Both the position numbers and the translations under genes were made by a program. From Aggregicoccus sp. 17bor-14 (lineage in GTDB: Bacteria; Myxococcota; Myxococcia; Myxococcales; Myxococcaceae), in contig NZ_VJZZ01000001.1 of the NCBI RefSeq assembly GCF_009659535.1, positions 124,001 to 188,000 on the forward strand: 64,000 nucleotides of DNA, read 5' to 3'. Positions 51,224 to 58,969 of this stretch are shown here, piece after piece. Below the pieces are notes generated by a model. The model had not been told where the DNA came from. It saw only the letters and a list, made by a program, of their open reading frames with translations, and searched no databases. The stretch's first letter is position 1, and every line of letters begins with the position of its first letter.

Positions 51224-52861
51224 CTACACCAGCATCAGCCCTTCCTCACCCGAGGCCACCACGCCTGCGAGCAGGGCCTCGGTGTGGCGGCGCCGATCGT
51301 CGGTGAGCTCGGCCACGTGCACCAGGATCTGGGGGTGGCTGAGGATGAGCGCGTCGAAGTCCTCGCGCGGCAGCCGGAGCAGCGAGGTGCGGCGCGCGGC
51401 CACCACGCTCGCGGTGGCCGGCGCCTTGTGCAGCAGGGACATCTCGCCGAAGAGCTCGCCCTCGCGCAGCCGCGCCAGGGCCTGGTCCTGCTTGCGCACC
51501 TCGACCTCGCCCGAGAGCACGACGTAGAGGCCGTCGCTGCGCTCGCCCTCGCGCACGAGCACCTCGCCGCGCGGCACCTCGCGGGCGCGGAAGCGCTCGA
51601 CGAGCACGCGCCGGTCCTTGCGATCGAAGAGCTGGAACAGCGCCGCGCTGCCCATCACGTTGGACAGCAGGCGCTCGCGGCAGAACTTCTTGAGCGCGCG
51701 CGCCACCTGCGGGTGCGCGCCGGCCAGCTCGGAGAGCACGGCCGCGGGGATCTCGAGCAGCTGCGTCTCATCCGAGGCGCTGACGACCGAGGCTGCGCGC
51801 GGCGCGCCCGAGAGCAGGGCCATCTCGCCGAAGAACGCACCCTCGCGCAGCAGCGCGAGCTCGCGCACCTCGCCCGCCGCTTCGCGCAGCACGCGCACCT
51901 GGCCCTCGCACACCACGTAGAACGCGCTGCCCACGCTGCCCTGCTCGAGCACGCGGGTGCCGGAGGCGAAGCGCCGCAGCGGGCAGCGCTCGAAGAGCGC
52001 GATGAAGGCCTCGGAGGGAAGGTCCGAGAAGAGCGGGATGTGCGGCAGCGCACCGGGGACGGGCGTGTCGCTCACCATCTCCTCGGTGAGGCTGAACACC
52101 GTCTCCTCGTCCTCCTCGGCTGCGGGGGCCGCGGCCGCCCGGGCCGCACCCTCCACCGCCTGGAGGATGGAGTCCGAGTCGAGCTCGAGCTCCGTGAAGC
52201 CCCCCGCGGGCATCTGCGGCTCCAGGGCCTCGCGCGGCGCGGGCTCCAGCTCGGGCGACGGCTCCGCGAGGGCGTTGCTGCGCCGGGGGCGCAGCCCCGG
52301 AGGCACGGCGCTGGAAGGTGCAGGAGCCTCACCGGCAGGCGGCTCCCCCTCGGGCGCGCCCGCCGGGTGGAGGGCGAGCTCCGGGGGCAGCGGGTCCGAG
52401 AGATCCACGGGACCGGCCTCCGCCGCGAGCGCCGGCTCGCGCACGGGCGCTGCTGCCACGGGCTGCGCCGCTGCGACCTGCACGGGCGCGACGGCCGGGC
52501 GCGGCGGAGACGCGGCACGCGCGGCGCGGGCGGCATCGGCGGGCGTCCCGCGCGCGGCGTACAGGTCCGCGAGCATCCGCTGCACGCCCTGGTGGGCCGG
52601 CTCCTGCTCGAGCACCAGCTTGCTCGCGGCGATGGCGCGGGGCAGGAAGCCGTCGCGCGCGAAGCCCTCGGCGGCGGCCTGGTAGGACGCCACCGCGCGC
52701 TCGCGCTCCCCTGCCTTGAGCCAGGAGTCTCCCAGGCGCAGCCGCGCCTGGTGGTCGCGCGGGTCGCCCGCGCAGTACTGGGCCCAGAGCTCCGCCGCCT
52801 TCCCGAAGCGCCCGCGGGTGAACGCGTCCGCGGCCTGATCCTTCACCTTGCGCAGGTCCAT
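51224..52861 (-). CDS. TPR protein with two cyclic-nucleotide-binding domains
   Basis: 545 residues: TPR-like N-terminus (about 1-105, KAAELWAQYCAGDPRDHQAR, YQAAAEGFARDGFLPRAIAA), a long Ala/Pro/Glu linker (about 110-265), then two CRP-type domains at about 270-395 and 400-520. The first has the complete phosphate-binding cassette FFGEMALLSGAPRAASVV with the ligand Arg. The second, LFGEMSLLHKAPATASVV, lacks that Arg and probably does not bind cAMP or cGMP in the canonical way. No DNA-binding domain or kinase follows. The ATG shares one base with the upstream HEAT gene stop (TGATG), so the two are coupled. Confidence 0.9.
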   Translation of the reverse strand: MDLRKVKDQAADAFTRGRFGKAAELWAQYCAGDPRDHQARLRLGDSWLKAGERERAVASYQAAAEGFARDGFLPRAIAASKLVLEQEPAHQGVQRMLADLYAARGTPADAARAARAASPPRPAVAPVQVAAAQPVAAAPVREPALAAEAGPVDLSDPLPPELALHPAGAPEGEPPAGEAPAPSSAVPPGLRPRRSNALAEPSPELEPAPREALEPQMPAGGFTELELDSDSILQAVEGAARAAAAPAAEEDEETVFSLTEEMVSDTPVPGALPHIPLFSDLPSEAFIALFERCPLRRFASGTRVLEQGSVGSAFYVVCEGQVRVLREAAGEVRELALLREGAFFGEMALLSGAPRAASVVSASDETQLLEIPAAVLSELAGAHPQVARALKKFCRERLLSNVMGSAALFQLFDRKDRRVLVERFRAREVPRGEVLVREGERSDGLYVVLSGEVEVRKQDQALARLREGELFGEMSLLHKAPATASVVAARRTSLLRLPREDFDALILSHPQILVHVAELTDDRRRHTEALLAGVVASGEEGLMLV

Positions 52862-54981
52862 CAGCGGGTGGCCTCCGCGGCGCCGGAGTTGATGCGCGCC
52901 AGCGCCCGCTCCGCAGCCAGGCGCACCTCGCGGTAGTAGTCGCTCTTGAGCGCGTCGAGCGCCTCCACCTGCGCCCCCGAGCCCAGGGTGGTCAGCGCTC
53001 CTGCCGCGGCGGCGCGCACGTCCGGCGTGTCGCTGTAGAGGTCTCGCGCGACGGCCTCCGCCGCGGAGCGCTCGCCGATCTCCCCGAGCGCAGTCAGCAG
53101 CTCGCGGCGCGCGGCCGCCGTCGGGTCCGCGAGCGCGGCCACCAGGGTGGGCACGGCGTCGCGGGCCTTGAGGCGCCCGAGCAGCAGGGCCGCGATGCCC
53201 GCCTCGGTTCCGCCCGCCTTCACGACCTCCGCGAGTGCGGGGGCTGCGTCCGCCGGGACGCTGGTGCGGTAGAGCGCCTCGAGCACGATGACCTTCTCGG
53301 GGCCCAGCTGCGGCAGCGCCGAGACCAGCGCCTTGCGGCCCGCCTCTCCCTGCTCCGACAGCGCCAGGGCCAGCTCCTTCTGGACCTCGCGGTCGGGCTC
53401 GAGCAGCGCCTTCGCGGCGATGCCAGTGCCCTCCCCGCCCAGCCGCGCGAGGCCGACGAGCGCGGCGGTGCGCAGCGCGGGGCTCGGGTCCTGCGCATGC
53501 GGCTTCAGGGCCGCGAGCGCCCCGTCCACGCGAAGCGCGCCGAGGCTGCGCAGCAGCGCCGAGAGCACGCGCAGCTTGCTCTCCGGCACGTCGTCCACCA
53601 ACTCCGTCGGCGGCAGGGGCTCGCTCGCGGGTGCCTGGCCGCGGGCCCGGGCGCGCGCGGCGTTGAGCGTCTTGAGCCGGTCGAAGAGCGCTGCCTGCTT
53701 CGCGCTGTGCGAGTCCTCCGGGTGCGCGCTCGGCGCGGGCGCGGCGGGGTCGAAGCCCGCGCCGTAGCGAAGCGGGAGCGGCGAAGAGACCCAGTCCGCC
53801 TGCAGCGGCTGCACCGCCGCGACCTCTTCCGCGTAGGCCTTGAGCAGCACCGGGCCGGCGGCGGCCGCGTCTCCGAGCGCTGCCGCGGCCTCGATGGCGC
53901 GCACGCGCAGATCCGTGTCCGTCTGGGAGATCAGCGGCAGCACGCGCGGCAGCGCCGCGGCGGCCGTGGGGCCGAGGCCTGCGAGGGTGCGCAGCGCGGA
54001 CTCCTGGGTGGCGGGCTTGCCGAGCCGCTCGACCACGGGCTCGATGGGGCAGCCGCCCCGCGCGCGCATCGCACGCCCTGCATCCAGCGCATCTGTGGGA
54101 GCTCCATCGAGGGCGATACGGCACAGGGCCGCGTCGGACTCGGGCGAGCGCGGCAGGCCGGCGATCGCCGCCAGCGCACCGGCGCTCGCGCTGCTGCGCT
54201 CGAGCGCGACGGCCGCCAGCTTCTGCACGACGACGGGGTCCTGCAGCTTGAGCAGCGCGGCGCTCGCGGCGGTGCGCAGCTCCGGGAAGCTCTCGTCCAG
54301 GAGGACAGCGATCTGGCCCACCGCGCGGGCATCGTCGGCCTCGCCCAATCCCCGCACCGCCGCAGCCGCGAGCACCACCTGCGGATCACGCACCAGCGTG
54401 AGGAGGCGGTCCACGGCCTCGGGCTTGCCGCTCTTGCCCAGCTCCTCGGCAGCCCCCACGCGCTCGGCGAGCGAGCCCTCGTTCAGGGTGAGCAGGTTGC
54501 GATCCCAGATGGCGTGCGACTCGGCCGCGACGGCCGTGGTCATGGGGTTGGGCACGCTGGCTGCGCGGAGCGCCTGGACGATGGCCTGGCGCGTGCGCGG
54601 GCCGCGCCGCGCGTACTGCAGCGTGAGGTAGGCCTTCGCCTTGTCCCCCTTCACCTCGGAGAGCGACATGGCGGCGCGGCTCTGCACCTCCTCGTCGGGG
54701 TCCTCGAGCAGCTCGCCGAGCAGGTCCACGACGCGCGGGTCCTGGCTGCTGCCCAGCGCCACGGCGGCCTCGCTGCGCACCACCGGGGTGAGGTCCTTCG
54801 CGGCCTGCGTGAAGAGCGCGAGATCCTCGGCGCGCCCCTGCTTCGCGAGCTCCTTCACGGCCTGCGCGCGCGTCTCGGGACGCGGGCTCTGCAGGTCCGC
54901 GAGGAGCTGGTCCCGCCCCCGGCCGCAGCTGGCGCAGAGGAGCAGGGCCAGGACGAGAGTGGAGCACGCGCGGGTTCGCAT
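52861..54981 (-). CDS. HEAT-repeat lipoprotein
   Basis: 706 residues. A lipoprotein signal ends in LLLCASC (Cys about 16 or 19). The rest is a long array of HEAT/PBS-lyase-type helical repeats, with units such as VVRSEAAVALGSSQDPRVVD, VQSRAAMSLSEVKGDKA, LRTAASAALLKLQDPVVVQK and VRAAAAGALTTLGSGAQVEA. Such solenoids serve as protein-binding scaffolds, here on the periplasmic face of a membrane. The gene is translationally coupled to the TPR-CNBD gene. Because one product is exported and the other cytosolic, any partnership would be indirect. Confidence 0.9.
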   Translation of the reverse strand: MRTRACSTLVLALLLCASCGRGRDQLLADLQSPRPETRAQAVKELAKQGRAEDLALFTQAAKDLTPVVRSEAAVALGSSQDPRVVDLLGELLEDPDEEVQSRAAMSLSEVKGDKAKAYLTLQYARRGPRTRQAIVQALRAASVPNPMTTAVAAESHAIWDRNLLTLNEGSLAERVGAAEELGKSGKPEAVDRLLTLVRDPQVVLAAAAVRGLGEADDARAVGQIAVLLDESFPELRTAASAALLKLQDPVVVQKLAAVALERSSASAGALAAIAGLPRSPESDAALCRIALDGAPTDALDAGRAMRARGGCPIEPVVERLGKPATQESALRTLAGLGPTAAAALPRVLPLISQTDTDLRVRAIEAAAALGDAAAAGPVLLKAYAEEVAAVQPLQADWVSSPLPLRYGAGFDPAAPAPSAHPEDSHSAKQAALFDRLKTLNAARARARGQAPASEPLPPTELVDDVPESKLRVLSALLRSLGALRVDGALAALKPHAQDPSPALRTAALVGLARLGGEGTGIAAKALLEPDREVQKELALALSEQGEAGRKALVSALPQLGPEKVIVLEALYRTSVPADAAPALAEVVKAGGTEAGIAALLLGRLKARDAVPTLVAALADPTAAARRELLTALGEIGERSAAEAVARDLYSDTPDVRAAAAGALTTLGSGAQVEALDALKSDYYREVRLAAERALARINSGAAEATR

Positions 54982-54996
54982 CGGTCACCGGTGGTT

Positions 54997-55016
54997 GGGG
55001 GCTTCTCGCAGCCCCC
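54997..55016 (-). terminator. GC hairpin after rluB
   Basis: Perfect 7-bp stem (54997-55003 with 55010-55016, 6-base loop), 47 bases after the rluB stop and just before the HEAT-lipoprotein start. No U-tract. A terminator of the scpAB-rluB unit is likely from position. Confidence 0.45.
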
Positions 55017-55062
55017 GGGTTATATCAATGCGTCGCTGCTCAGCGCATGCCGCGCGCCCGCC

Positions 55063-57120
55063 TCAGCGGGGCTTGCGCGGGCCGCCGGGACGGGGGCGGT
55101 TGCCACCCGGCCGCGGCCGGTCCGTCGTCCAGCGCGCGGGGCCCTGGGACTTGCGCTCGCGCCAGTCGGTGAAACCCGGGCGATCTCCGCCCTCGGCCCG
55201 CCCGCCCGCCGCGCCGAAGCCCTTGCGCGCAGGGCGCTCGCTGCCGCCCGCGCCACCGCGCTGAGGCCGCTCGCCCCCGCCGGAGCCGCCCCGCGCAGGA
55301 CGCTCGCCCCGCTCACCGCCGCCGCGCGGCGCGCGCTCCGGGGCACCGCCGAAGCTGCGGCGCGCAGGACGGTCCTCGGAACCGAAGCCCCCGCGCCCTG
55401 CCCCGCCGCCGAAGGGCTTGCGCGCCGGACGGTCGTCGCCGCCGCGCGCGGGCCGGTCATCGCCCGCGAAGGCACGGCGCGTGGGCCGCTCAGCGCCGCC
55501 GCGCGCGGGCCGATCGTCGCCCGCGAAGGCACGGCGCGTGGGCCGCTCGTCGCCACCGCCGAAGCTCTTGCGCGCAGGCCGCTCGTCGCCAGCGCCGAAG
55601 CTCTTGCGGGCGGGCCGCTCGTCGCCACCGCCGAAGCTCTTGCGGGCGGGCCGCTCCGAGCCACCCTCGAAGCCCCGACGGCCGGGCCGCTCGTCACCGC
55701 CGCGAGACGGACGCTCGGAGCCACCGAAGCTCTTGCGCTCCGCGCCGCCACCGAAGCCACCACGCGCCGGACGCTCGGAGCCGCCACCGAAGCTCTTGCG
55801 CTCGGAGCCCCCGAAGCCGCCGCGCGATGGACGCTCATTGCCCCCGAAGCTCTTGCGAGCCGGACGCTCGTCGCCCCCGAAGCTCTTGCGCGCCGGGCGC
55901 TCGTCTCCACCGAAGCTCTTGCGCGCAGGGCGCTCCGAGCCGCCGCCGAAGCCACCGCGAGACGGGCGCTCGTCTCCCCCGAAGCTCTTGCGCGCCGGGC
56001 GCTCCGAGCCACCGCCGAACCCACCGCGAGCGGGGCGATCGCCGCCTGCCCCAAAGCCCTTGCGCGCGGGCCGCTCGCCGCCGCCGAAGCTCTTGCGCGC
56101 CGGCCGGGCCTCCTCCTCCATGCCGCGGCCGAGCGCCTCGGCCGCGCGCTCGCCGGTGCTCTTGCGCACGGGCGCCTCGCTCTCGAGCCCGCGGCGCCCC
56201 GCGCTGAAGGCCGGACGACTGCCACCCTCCGCGCGGCCCCTGGCGGGTGCACCCGCGGCGGGCCGGCGCGCAGGCGGCGGCGCGGCCTCGTCACCGTCCT
56301 CGGCGCCGTCATCCCCATCGAAGGTCTCGAAGCCCGGCGCCGCGCGGCCATGGCGGCGCGGCGGCAGCTTGAAGCTCTTGGGGTTGGGCGCCTCGGCGCG
56401 GCCCTCGGCCACCTCGTTGAGGAGGCGGATCTCCTGGCCGGTGAGCGTGCGCAGCTGCCCGGGGCGCAGCCCCTCCACGTTCACGCCGGCGTAGTTGGGG
56501 CGGTAGAGGCGAAGCACGGGGTGACCGACCGCGGCGCACAGGCGCTTGATGAGGTGGGGCCGCCCCTCGGCGACCACGATCCGCAGCCAGGTGTTGGCCT
56601 CCGCCTTCTCGTGCACGTCGACCGAGACGGGCGTGGCCATGCCGTCCTCGAGCCGCACGCCGCCGCGCAGCTTCTCGAGCGTGGCCGTATCCGGCACGCC
56701 CTTCACCTTGGTGAGGTAGGTGCGCGGCACCTGGAAGCTCGGGTGGGTGAGCTTGTGCGCGAGCGCACCGTCGTCCGTGAAGAGCAGCGCGCCCTCGGCG
56801 TCGTAGTCGAGGCGGCCGACGGGGAAGAGGCGCTTGTCCGTATCCGCGATGTAGTCCGCGACGGTGGGCCGGCCCTGCGGGTCCGAGAGCGTGGTGACCA
56901 CGCCGGTGGGCTTGTAGAGCAGGTAGTACGAGGACTTCTCGGGCGGCTGCACGAGCTTGCCGTCCACGGAGACGAGGTCGGTGCCGGGCTCCACACGGCT
57001 GCCGAGCTCGGTGATGGTCTGGTTGTTCACCTTCACGCGGCCCGCGGTGATCAGCTCCTCGGCGTGACGACGGGAGGCGACGCCCGCGCGGGCGAGGTAC
57101 TTCTGCAGTCTTTCGGCCAT
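55063..57120 (-). CDS. rluB: RluB/RsuA-family pseudouridine synthase with long RGG/FGG-repeat tail
   Basis: Isomerises a uridine of 23S rRNA (or 16S) to pseudouridine. 685 residues. The S4 RNA-binding domain (RLQKYLARAGVASRRHAEEL, residues 4-60) and catalytic domain (catalytic Asp in PVGRLDYDAEGALLFTDDG, about residue 100) end near residue 245. The remaining about 430 residues are a low-complexity basic tail made of some 25 degenerate units of the type ERPARKSFGG and ERPSRGGFGG. Such RGG/FGG repeats typically bind RNA and are disordered. The gene follows scpB by 54 bases, a common order. The catalytic part is secure; the tail function is unknown. Confidence 0.94.
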   Translation of the reverse strand: MAERLQKYLARAGVASRRHAEELITAGRVKVNNQTITELGSRVEPGTDLVSVDGKLVQPPEKSSYYLLYKPTGVVTTLSDPQGRPTVADYIADTDKRLFPVGRLDYDAEGALLFTDDGALAHKLTHPSFQVPRTYLTKVKGVPDTATLEKLRGGVRLEDGMATPVSVDVHEKAEANTWLRIVVAEGRPHLIKRLCAAVGHPVLRLYRPNYAGVNVEGLRPGQLRTLTGQEIRLLNEVAEGRAEAPNPKSFKLPPRRHGRAAPGFETFDGDDGAEDGDEAAPPPARRPAAGAPARGRAEGGSRPAFSAGRRGLESEAPVRKSTGERAAEALGRGMEEEARPARKSFGGGERPARKGFGAGGDRPARGGFGGGSERPARKSFGGDERPSRGGFGGGSERPARKSFGGDERPARKSFGGDERPARKSFGGNERPSRGGFGGSERKSFGGGSERPARGGFGGGAERKSFGGSERPSRGGDERPGRRGFEGGSERPARKSFGGGDERPARKSFGAGDERPARKSFGGGDERPTRRAFAGDDRPARGGAERPTRRAFAGDDRPARGGDDRPARKPFGGGAGRGGFGSEDRPARRSFGGAPERAPRGGGERGERPARGGSGGGERPQRGGAGGSERPARKGFGAAGGRAEGGDRPGFTDWRERKSQGPARWTTDRPRPGGNRPRPGGPRKPR
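55200..56130 (-). repeat. Coding tandem degenerate repeats in the rluB tail
   Basis: DNA encoding about 25 units of a 10-14 residue repeat ([E/D]RPARKSFGG and [E/D]RPSRGGFGG variants). Blocks of nearly identical DNA recur, for example around 55560-55640 and 55850-55930, which makes length variation by slippage or recombination likely. Confidence 0.8.
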
Positions 57121-57174
57121 GATGTTGCGCTCTTCTCTCTGGGCGCCCGCTCTCGCGGGGGCATTGCGGCCCTT

Positions 57175-58119
57175 CTACTCGGGCTTGGGTTCCGGCGGTT
57201 CGGCCGGAGTCTGGGCGGCGAGCGCGGAGGCACTCGCCTTCTGGGTCTTCTCTGCGGCGGCGAGCGCCTCCTCGAGGATCTCGAGGGCGGCCTCGCTCGC
57301 CTGGGTGCTCTTCTCCATGCGGGCCTGGAACTCCGGGTCCGCAAGGGTCTCCACGGTGCCCGCGGCAGTAGGACGGGGTCCGCTCTCCTTCTCTACAATG
57401 TCCTGGTGCTCCTGGGTGAGCTCGTGGAACTCGCGCAGGGTGGGCAGGCTGCTCAGGTCCTTGAGCGCGAAGAACTCGAGGAACTCGCGGGTGGTGCCGT
57501 AGAGGATGGGGCGGCCCACCTCCTCCTTCTTGCCGAGGATCTTCACCAGCTTGCGATCCAGGAGCGCCTTGAGGACCGCGCCGCAGTCCACGCCGCGGAT
57601 GTCCTCCACCTCGGGGCGGGTGACGGGCTGGCGGTAGGCGATGATCGCGAGCGTCTCCACGGCGGCGCGCGTGAGGCGCTGCGGCTTCACCTGGAGGAAG
57701 CGGCGCACGTACTCGGCGGAGTGCGGATCGGTGCGGAACTGCCAGCCGCCCGCGACCTCGTAGAGCACGATGCCGCTGATGCCCTCGCGGTGGATGCCGC
57801 CGAGCTGATCCAGCGCCTTGGTGATGAGCTCGCGGTCGATGCCCGAGCTCTCGAAGAGCTGGTCGAGCGTGAGCGGCTTGTCCGAGACGAAGAGCAGGCT
57901 CTCCACCACGGTGCGCACGCGCTCCGCGCTGAGCTTGCGGCTCTTCTGGACGAGCTTCTCGAAGGGGGTCTCGAAGTCGGGGCCGCCCTCCTCGATGGCG
58001 GCCGCCTCCACGTCGTCCAGGTCCGACTCGCCGCCGGGGCCGGTGACGGCCGCGATCTCCTCCTCGGAGAAGGGGCTGGGGCCGCCGGTGCCGCCCTCGG
58101 GATCCTTACCGGTAGTCAC
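57175..58119 (-). CDS. scpB: Segregation and condensation protein ScpB
   Basis: Kleisin-associated winged-helix subunit of the Smc-ScpAB chromosome condensin. 314 residues; the conserved core (about 65-225) holds VRTVVESLLFVSDKPLTLDQ, GWQFRTDPHSAEYVRRFLQV, and ETLAIIAYRQPVTRPEVEDIRG with GRPILYGTTREFLEFF. It has N- and C-terminal acidic, Pro/Ala-rich extensions longer than in Bacillus. The GTG start overlaps the end of scpA by 14 bases. smc itself is outside the window. Confidence 0.96.
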   Translation of the reverse strand: MTTGKDPEGGTGGPSPFSEEEIAAVTGPGGESDLDDVEAAAIEEGGPDFETPFEKLVQKSRKLSAERVRTVVESLLFVSDKPLTLDQLFESSGIDRELITKALDQLGGIHREGISGIVLYEVAGGWQFRTDPHSAEYVRRFLQVKPQRLTRAAVETLAIIAYRQPVTRPEVEDIRGVDCGAVLKALLDRKLVKILGKKEEVGRPILYGTTREFLEFFALKDLSSLPTLREFHELTQEHQDIVEKESGPRPTAAGTVETLADPEFQARMEKSTQASEAALEILEEALAAAEKTQKASASALAAQTPAEPPEPKPE

Positions 58120-58969
58120 TCTCGTCCACCTCCGTGGGCACCAGGCGCTCCAGGGCGTCGCCGTTGGGTGTGAGGATGATGTCCTGGCCCGCCTCGGCCT
58201 GGGAGACGCGCAGCAGGCGGCGCTTGCACATCTCGAGGATGGCCAGGAAGGTCACCACGATCTGGTGGCGGGTGCGCACGTCCTCGAAGAGGCTCTCGAA
58301 GCTCGCCTGGTTGCCACCTGCGAGCACCTTCTCCGCCACCTTGAGGATGGCCTCGCTGATGCTGAAGGTCTCGCGCACGACCTCGTGCTGCAGCTTGGGC
58401 GTCAGGCGCTCGAGGACGCGGTCGAGCGCCTCGATGAGCTTGAGGACGCTGAACTCCTGCAGGCCCACCTCCTCCTCGGGGATGGGCACGGCCTCGACCG
58501 GGACCTTCCGGGCGAAGACGTCGCGGTCGAGGATGTCCTGCTTCGCGAGCATCTCGGCCGCGTCCTTGTACTTCTGGTAGTCGAGCAGGCGGCGCACGAG
58601 CTCGGCGCGCGGGTCGCGCTGCTCCTCGAGCGCCTCCACGCTCTCCGCGGCCTGGGCGGCCTCCTGGCGCGGCAGGAGCAGGCGGCTCTTGATGTGGCCG
58701 AGCGTCGCGGCCATCACCAGGAACTCGCCCGCGATGTCGAGATCGATCTCGCGCATCCGCTCGAGCTGCTCGAGGTACTTCTCGGTGATCAGCGCGATCG
58801 GGATGTCGAAGATGTCGACCCGGTGCTCGCGGATGAGGTGCAGCAGGAGATCGAGCGGCCCCTCGAAGTTGGGCAGCGCAACGCGGAAGGCGGCGGCCGG
58901 CGACAACGCCGGCGCGTCTCCTTCGCTGAGCGCCTCGTCGGGCGGTGCAGCGCGACGGCCTTCACTCAC
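58106..58969 (-). CDS. scpA: Segregation and condensation protein ScpA (kleisin)
   Basis: Kleisin subunit that bridges the SMC heads of condensin. 287 residues. The N-terminal family signature FEGPLDLLLHLIREHRVDIF (about 36-55), YLEQLERMREIDLDIAGEFL and GHIKSRLLLPR are clear. The C-terminal winged helix (about 205-270) has FESLFEDVRTRHQIVVTFLA. GTG start; a TTGACC/TAGACA promoter lies about 100 bases upstream. It heads the scpA-scpB-rluB unit. Confidence 0.96.
   Translation of the reverse strand: MSEGRRAAPPDEALSEGDAPALSPAAAFRVALPNFEGPLDLLLHLIREHRVDIFDIPIALITEKYLEQLERMREIDLDIAGEFLVMAATLGHIKSRLLLPRQEAAQAAESVEALEEQRDPRAELVRRLLDYQKYKDAAEMLAKQDILDRDVFARKVPVEAVPIPEEEVGLQEFSVLKLIEALDRVLERLTPKLQHEVVRETFSISEAILKVAEKVLAGGNQASFESLFEDVRTRHQIVVTFLAILEMCKRRLLRVSQAEAGQDIILTPNGDALERLVPTEVDESDYR

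Follow-up and report, generated by a model that had tools for sequence, protein, structure and literature searches.

The RluB-type gene and its surroundings

The window, the whole 64,000-nucleotide stretch of DNA that was analyzed, contains an rluB-type rRNA pseudouridine synthase gene for a 685-residue protein on the reverse strand (55063..57120). Its open reading frame encodes an S4 RNA-binding domain (residues 3-47, 56980..57114, PF01479, E 1.3e-14) and a catalytic pseudouridine synthase domain (PseudoU_synth_2, residues 65-197, 56530..56928, PF00849 and alignment to E. coli RluB), both of which exceed Pfam cut-offs. The TIGR00093 score of 159.1 bits, against an NCBIfam cut-off of 109.3, places the protein among the RsuA/RluB/RluE/RluF pseudouridine synthases, and among solved structures E. 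coli RluB comes nearest to it (4LAB/4LGT, E 9.6e-42). The GRLD sequence at residues 102-105, which includes catalytic Asp105, is invariant in 99 of 99 sequences, as is Arg133, and Tyr135 is found in 98 of the 99.

Arg133 corresponds to Arg138 of E. coli RluB, so the arginine is kept at this position. The position of E. coli RluB Glu135 is aligned with Gln130 in the window protein and with Gln throughout the core clade, which comprises the eight closest genera (81% or more catalytic-domain identity with the window protein). In E. coli RluB, Glu135 contacts the bulged base, and RluF has Asp there (PMC3919597). The RluB equivalog NF007976 is the top equivalog-type match (149.5 bits), yet it falls under its curated cut-off of 290. 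Because of this score and the Gln in the core clade, the protein is named RluB-type and is not a proven RluB. As judged from its sequence, the gene is a member of the RsuA/RluB family and of RluB type. Its presumed reaction is the isomerization of a 23S rRNA uridine within the peptidyl-transferase region. The best explanation of the locus is that it holds the ordinary RluB-type enzyme of Myxococcaceae, equipped with a long disordered C-terminal tail.

Residues 185-194 (about 56539-56568, reverse strand) read EGRPHLIKRL, as they do across the core clade, and the E. coli counterpart is EGRNREVRRL. Nearly every sequence from the order retains the H-L-(V/I)-K-R core of this segment.

The upstream neighbors are scpB (57175..58119, PF04079) and scpA (58106..58969, PF02616), both on the reverse strand; they are ordinary genomic context and are mentioned only as such. 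A HEAT-repeat protein with a lipoprotein-like N-terminus (52861-54981, reverse strand) lies directly downstream of rluB. It occupies the same place at locus L081, where the gene order trpS-scpA-scpB-rluB-HEAT is also present. The forward strand is open over long stretches here, and one open frame of 1558 amino acids (53497-58173) runs antisense across rluB and its neighbors. This frame is regarded as a side effect of GC-rich codons.

The tail and its reading frame

The tail comprises residues 241-685 (445 amino acids) and follows the catalytic domain, whose end is placed at about residue 240. Near its root is an LPPRRHGR motif (residues 252-259, 56344..56367) that is also conserved in most short-tail relatives. 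An acidic or mixed linker leads to the repeat region (residues 338-645, 55186..56109), in which units of the ERPARKSFGG, ERPSRGGFGG, and ERPTRRAFAG kinds bring an aromatic residue about every 14 positions. The last part is a non-repeated segment, DRPGFTDW...GPRKPR (residues 646-685, 55066..55185), and this type of end is common across genera. All of these features are on the reverse strand. The tail has 24 RPxR units and is 19% R, 24% G, and 6% F, whereas the remaining five frames yield quite different residues. RGG occurs 11 times and FGG or FGA 18 times within the 445 residues, which qualifies the tail as an RGG/RG-repeat region.

The tail is predicted to be disordered. AlphaFold block-mean pLDDT is 74-93 in the enzyme part and about 40 in the tail, repeat region included, where no secondary structure is predicted, and the tail falls on the disordered side in a charge-hydropathy analysis. 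The preliminary description had reported an RluB-type synthase with an RGG/FGG-like tail of 430 residues and about 25 units, and had proposed disorder prediction as a check. The domain and structure matches, the measured tail, and both disorder predictions agree with it.

The same description held that near-identical DNA blocks in the tail imply copy-number variation. The blocks are mostly not near-identical, and recent copy-number change in this genome is not supported by them. DNA copies inside the gene are mostly old and diverged at synonymous sites: the seven RPARKSFGG peptides are encoded by seven distinct 27-mers. Tandem Repeats Finder reports overlapping arrays in the tail, with periods mostly of 33-105. 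The sole recent-looking tandem duplication is a block of 57 bp present in 2.2 copies with 92% matches (55437..55559, reverse strand), and the other tail arrays are 66-81% identical. Two RPTRRAFAG copies have zero synonymous differences between them.

An error in the repeat region, shown by long reads, was another observation that the preliminary description had named as speaking against it. Within the core clade, all 45 tails that can be read to a stop codon are long (378-1077 amino acids, one of them frameshifted), and 44 of the 45 carry the C-terminal end motif in frame; an F-x-D-W-like motif is present in 35. Because this in-frame C-terminal segment is common across genera, the frame of the window tail is intact through the repeats. 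A frameshift or assembly artefact, for which the frame slip in the tail of one relative (L150) might be cited, is ruled out for the reading frame of the window tail and has a negligible chance of being right, since this tail ends in the usual in-frame segment, as do 44 of the 45 from the core clade, among them several whose genomes are single contigs.

In L150 (G104:C1:5198400-5203500), the tail ends out of frame (...GMELVGLGPLRWCWPG) and the usual C-terminal end occurs in another frame downstream. Either a frameshift or a sequencing error within the repeats would account for this slip.

Over 17 pairs of related species, the dN/dS ratio of the tail is 0.06-0.42, values that alignment of the repeats may bias downward. 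Synonymous divergence (pS) is greater in the tail than in the catalytic domain in all 17 pairs, by 1.4 to 10 times. Because dN/dS is below 1 despite the raised pS, and because identical peptides are specified by different DNA, the tail is translated and under constraint at the protein level, with DNA that mutates quickly or undergoes reshuffling. A comparison of pN between units of the gene that had been chosen for an identical motif is circular and was left out of account. Coding on the other strand or in other frames of the tail was rejected, because purifying selection tracks the rluB frame and the residues of the other frames differ.

In the tail, codons ending in A or T exceed the residue-matched expectation from the catalytic domain of the same gene by a factor of about 1.5-3, both in the window (55066-56400) and in 19 other core-clade tails (20 of 20). 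This excess could reflect a relaxation of codon selection, or selection that disfavors long repeats in the DNA. Active scrambling of codons against DNA repeats is not supported, because in-register codons for the same residue are more alike than random, not less.

Distribution and conserved chemistry

Each of the 60 genomes covered by the first search has the enzyme, as do 94 of 96 genomes of the family (E <= 1e-70). In a tree built from 93 catalytic domains, six changes are needed to account for the long and short tails. The preliminary description had named tail-less orthologues in close relatives as evidence against it. On this point it stands for the close genera, every one of which is long-tailed, and does not extend to more distant genera of the same family (Myxococcaceae), whose tails have 15-80 amino acids. 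Because those genera manage with so little, a long tail is dispensable for the enzyme as such. The variation in length anticipated among related species is found as well, both across the core clade and between congeners (573 versus 1077 amino acids within one genus). The two closest paralogues of the window gene are frames of just 277 and 314 amino acids.

Long tails are not peculiar to the window lineage, since similar ones occur in Pseudomonadota. Matches were found in 75 of 100 genomes of that phylum, and 20 with long open frames were examined. Extensions of similar character, 200-400 amino acids long, are C-terminal (such as L168, L171, L178, and L179), N-terminal (L169, L172, and L173), or at both ends (L174-L176); the enzymes of the last two groups carry repeats rich in R and G. 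Their placement at different ends of the protein argues for separate origins. L170 and L186 were only open frames.

The bulk chemistry of the tail persists in the core clade, whereas its repeat sequence does not. Repeat units vary by genus, with ERPARKSFGG in the window, GRPERKSWAPRGEG in g15, RFGGDEGGARGGS in g17, and FGADRPERPARKS in g11, and F, W, and Y interchange between genera. Searches with the g15 and g11 tails against eight genomes, and with the window tail against its own genome, gave matches only in rluB; the g15 and g11 searches gave no match even to the rluB of most other genera. Spread of the repeat to other genes was not found in these searches.

In the repeat part of the 44 intact core-clade tails, net charge per residue is +0.095 (SD 0.011). 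Positive density ranges over 0.19-0.32 and negative density over 0.09-0.19, and the two covary (r = 0.96). Glycine content is high and aliphatic content is very low. Aromatic residues number 6.4 per 100 (SD 0.8) and have a median gap of 14, or one F, W, or Y per about 14 residues. Of 1154 aromatic gaps, 78% span 10-20 residues (29% expected at random) and 1.2% are under 5 (24% expected). An R or K lies within the three residues before 96% of aromatics, compared with a background of 60%. Against a tiling null, the constancy of net charge has p <= 0.0005 for units of 15-45 amino acids, 0.02-0.04 for 60-90, and 0.07 for 120. Because the p value weakens with longer units, the strength of the charge-constancy claim depends on unit size; moreover, given the relatedness of the core genera, the tails do not count as independent samples.

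Proposed roles and relation to known systems

The tail probably tethers the enzyme to pre-50S rRNA through multivalent, sequence-tolerant RNA contacts. Steps rich in Arg and Lys, with one aromatic per about 14 positions, would keep the enzyme in loose contact with unfolded pre-23S rRNA, which would raise its local concentration and residence time there, and the tail might also help the rRNA to rearrange. The S4 and catalytic domains would carry out the specific work. If only the bulk chemistry of the tail is needed, repeats could expand, contract, and be replaced as long as net charge and aromatic spacing are kept, and this would explain fast repeat turnover with constant charge and spacing. 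The end of the enzyme would tolerate growth and in several lineages would have become a long cation-aromatic chain. We infer RNA binding by the tail, its role as a tether, and any condensation.

Several results are consistent with a tether. The catalytic Asp, Arg133, and Tyr135 are conserved next to a tail predicted to be disordered. Readable core-clade tails are all long, with constant net charge, regular R/K-led aromatic spacing, and low dN/dS. Searches with the window, g15, and g11 tails match only rluB, and similar extensions exist in Pseudomonadota. However, the C-terminal 40 residues of E. coli RluB are predicted to be disordered, are poorly conserved, and were omitted from the crystallized RNA complex (PMC3919597). 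Re-expression of RluB in an E. coli strain without ten modification enzymes gave no growth improvement (PMC11194073). On the E. coli results, the tail or the enzyme may matter little for fitness (PMC3919597, PMC11194073). Also against a tether, short tails suffice in several other genera of the family, charge constancy is clear only for short units and in related genera, and dN/dS is possibly biased down.

Alternatively, as the preliminary description proposed, the tail might be a condensate scaffold or client that self-associates by Arg-aromatic contacts and, together with RNA, builds or enters ribosome-assembly foci. The regular cation-aromatic sticker-and-spacer pattern kept across genera, together with the Gly-rich, aliphatic-poor composition, suggests this, as do reported bacterial condensates that are marked by the DEAD-box protein DeaD and contain translation factors (PMC12758526). 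However, the net charge and aromatic content fit RNA binding equally well, and the tails of the DEAD-box helicases of the window genome are shorter and of another kind, which leaves no common type of tail to mark a joint focus. We regard this role as possible but doubtful. Condensation by the tail is possible in that it would be compatible with a tether, and no more than that.

A wider form of the condensate proposal is somewhat less likely still. It holds that RluB-type enzymes in several phyla repeatedly gain long cation-aromatic sticker tails at either end, that selection would hold the pattern (an R/K-led F, W, or Y about every 14 residues, with net charge of about +0.1) while units are replaced, and that the tail would make the enzyme nucleate or join ribosome-assembly foci. 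Equally unlikely in our estimate is that the tail is an RNA chaperone, which would anneal or remodel rRNA independently of pseudouridylation, with the enzyme mainly a carrier. A tail that keeps length and chemistry but not sequence is consistent with a chaperone, and the modification enzymes RlmB and RlmL have a second assembly role that is independent of catalysis (PMC11194073). In contrast, E. coli RluB, with a tail of only about 40 residues, showed no such effect (PMC3919597, PMC11194073).

The main sober rival to a tether is near-neutral growth under weak constraint, which we consider improbable. GC-rich slippage repeats would accumulate on a tolerant end of the protein, and selection would remove only stops, hydrophobic patches, and excess charge. 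Such growth could account for unit identity that is not conserved across genera, for congeners that differ in length, for raised tail synonymous divergence in every species pair, and for six tail changes in the order. However, dN/dS is well below 1 in every pair, every readable core-clade genome is long-tailed, and aromatic spacing and charge balance are preserved. The tested repeats are also confined to rluB, whose two closest paralogues are short.

The tails, of which more than 40 can be read, form a natural series: they are 378 to 1077 amino acids long, have diverse repeat sequences with F, W, and Y swapped, and are attached to an enzyme of one function that hardly varies (81% or higher catalytic-domain identity with the window protein). 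With this series, it can be tested directly in a bacterium which bulk features are important in a disordered RNA-binding tail, and whether tethering or condensate-like crowding has a part in bacterial ribosome assembly. The series also shows that disordered sequence under selection, several hundred residues of it, can lie hidden in the RluB genes of GC-rich bacteria. Three elements are already known separately: disordered RluB tails, tails of RGG-like character on RNA enzymes, and disordered regions in which bulk features are conserved (PMC6634968). In the open-access literature searched, nothing was found on long RluB tails, nor any description of the combination of tail length, aromatic pattern, and repeated origin.

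The closest known system is E. coli RluB, the 23S rRNA Psi2605 synthase (4LAB, 4LGT, 9CL9), which shares the S4 and RsuA/RluB-type catalytic domains, the catalytic Asp, Arg, and Tyr, the HPS loop, and a predicted-disordered C-terminal tail. However, its tail has 40 poorly conserved residues (PMC3919597), compared with 445 and a regular aromatic pattern in the window, and its bulge-contacting Glu135 is Gln in the core clade. Eukaryotic RGG/RG and FG-type regions, such as those of DDX3X and hnRNPA1, are likewise Arg/Gly-rich, aromatic-punctuated, and disordered. The window tail differs in belonging to a bacterial rRNA-modifying enzyme and in its strongly acidic share (Asp plus Glu about 14%), its mixed charge, and its RKxF/W repeats, which are not pure RGG; no homology is claimed.

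Bacterial DEAD-box helicases also carry Arg/Gly-rich tails on RNA enzymes, and one helicase of the window genome (L063) ends in such a tail of 145 residues. The helicase tails of this genome are either shorter or differently composed, contain few aromatics, and lack a repeat unit of this kind, and a tail common to rluB and these helicases was not seen on comparison. In yeast disordered regions, the variance of net charge is reduced even though the sequences are unalignable (Zarin et al. 2019, PMC6634968), much as in the core-clade tails. In contrast to the yeast regions, the window case is bacterial and driven by tandem repeats, and regular aromatic spacing is kept as well.
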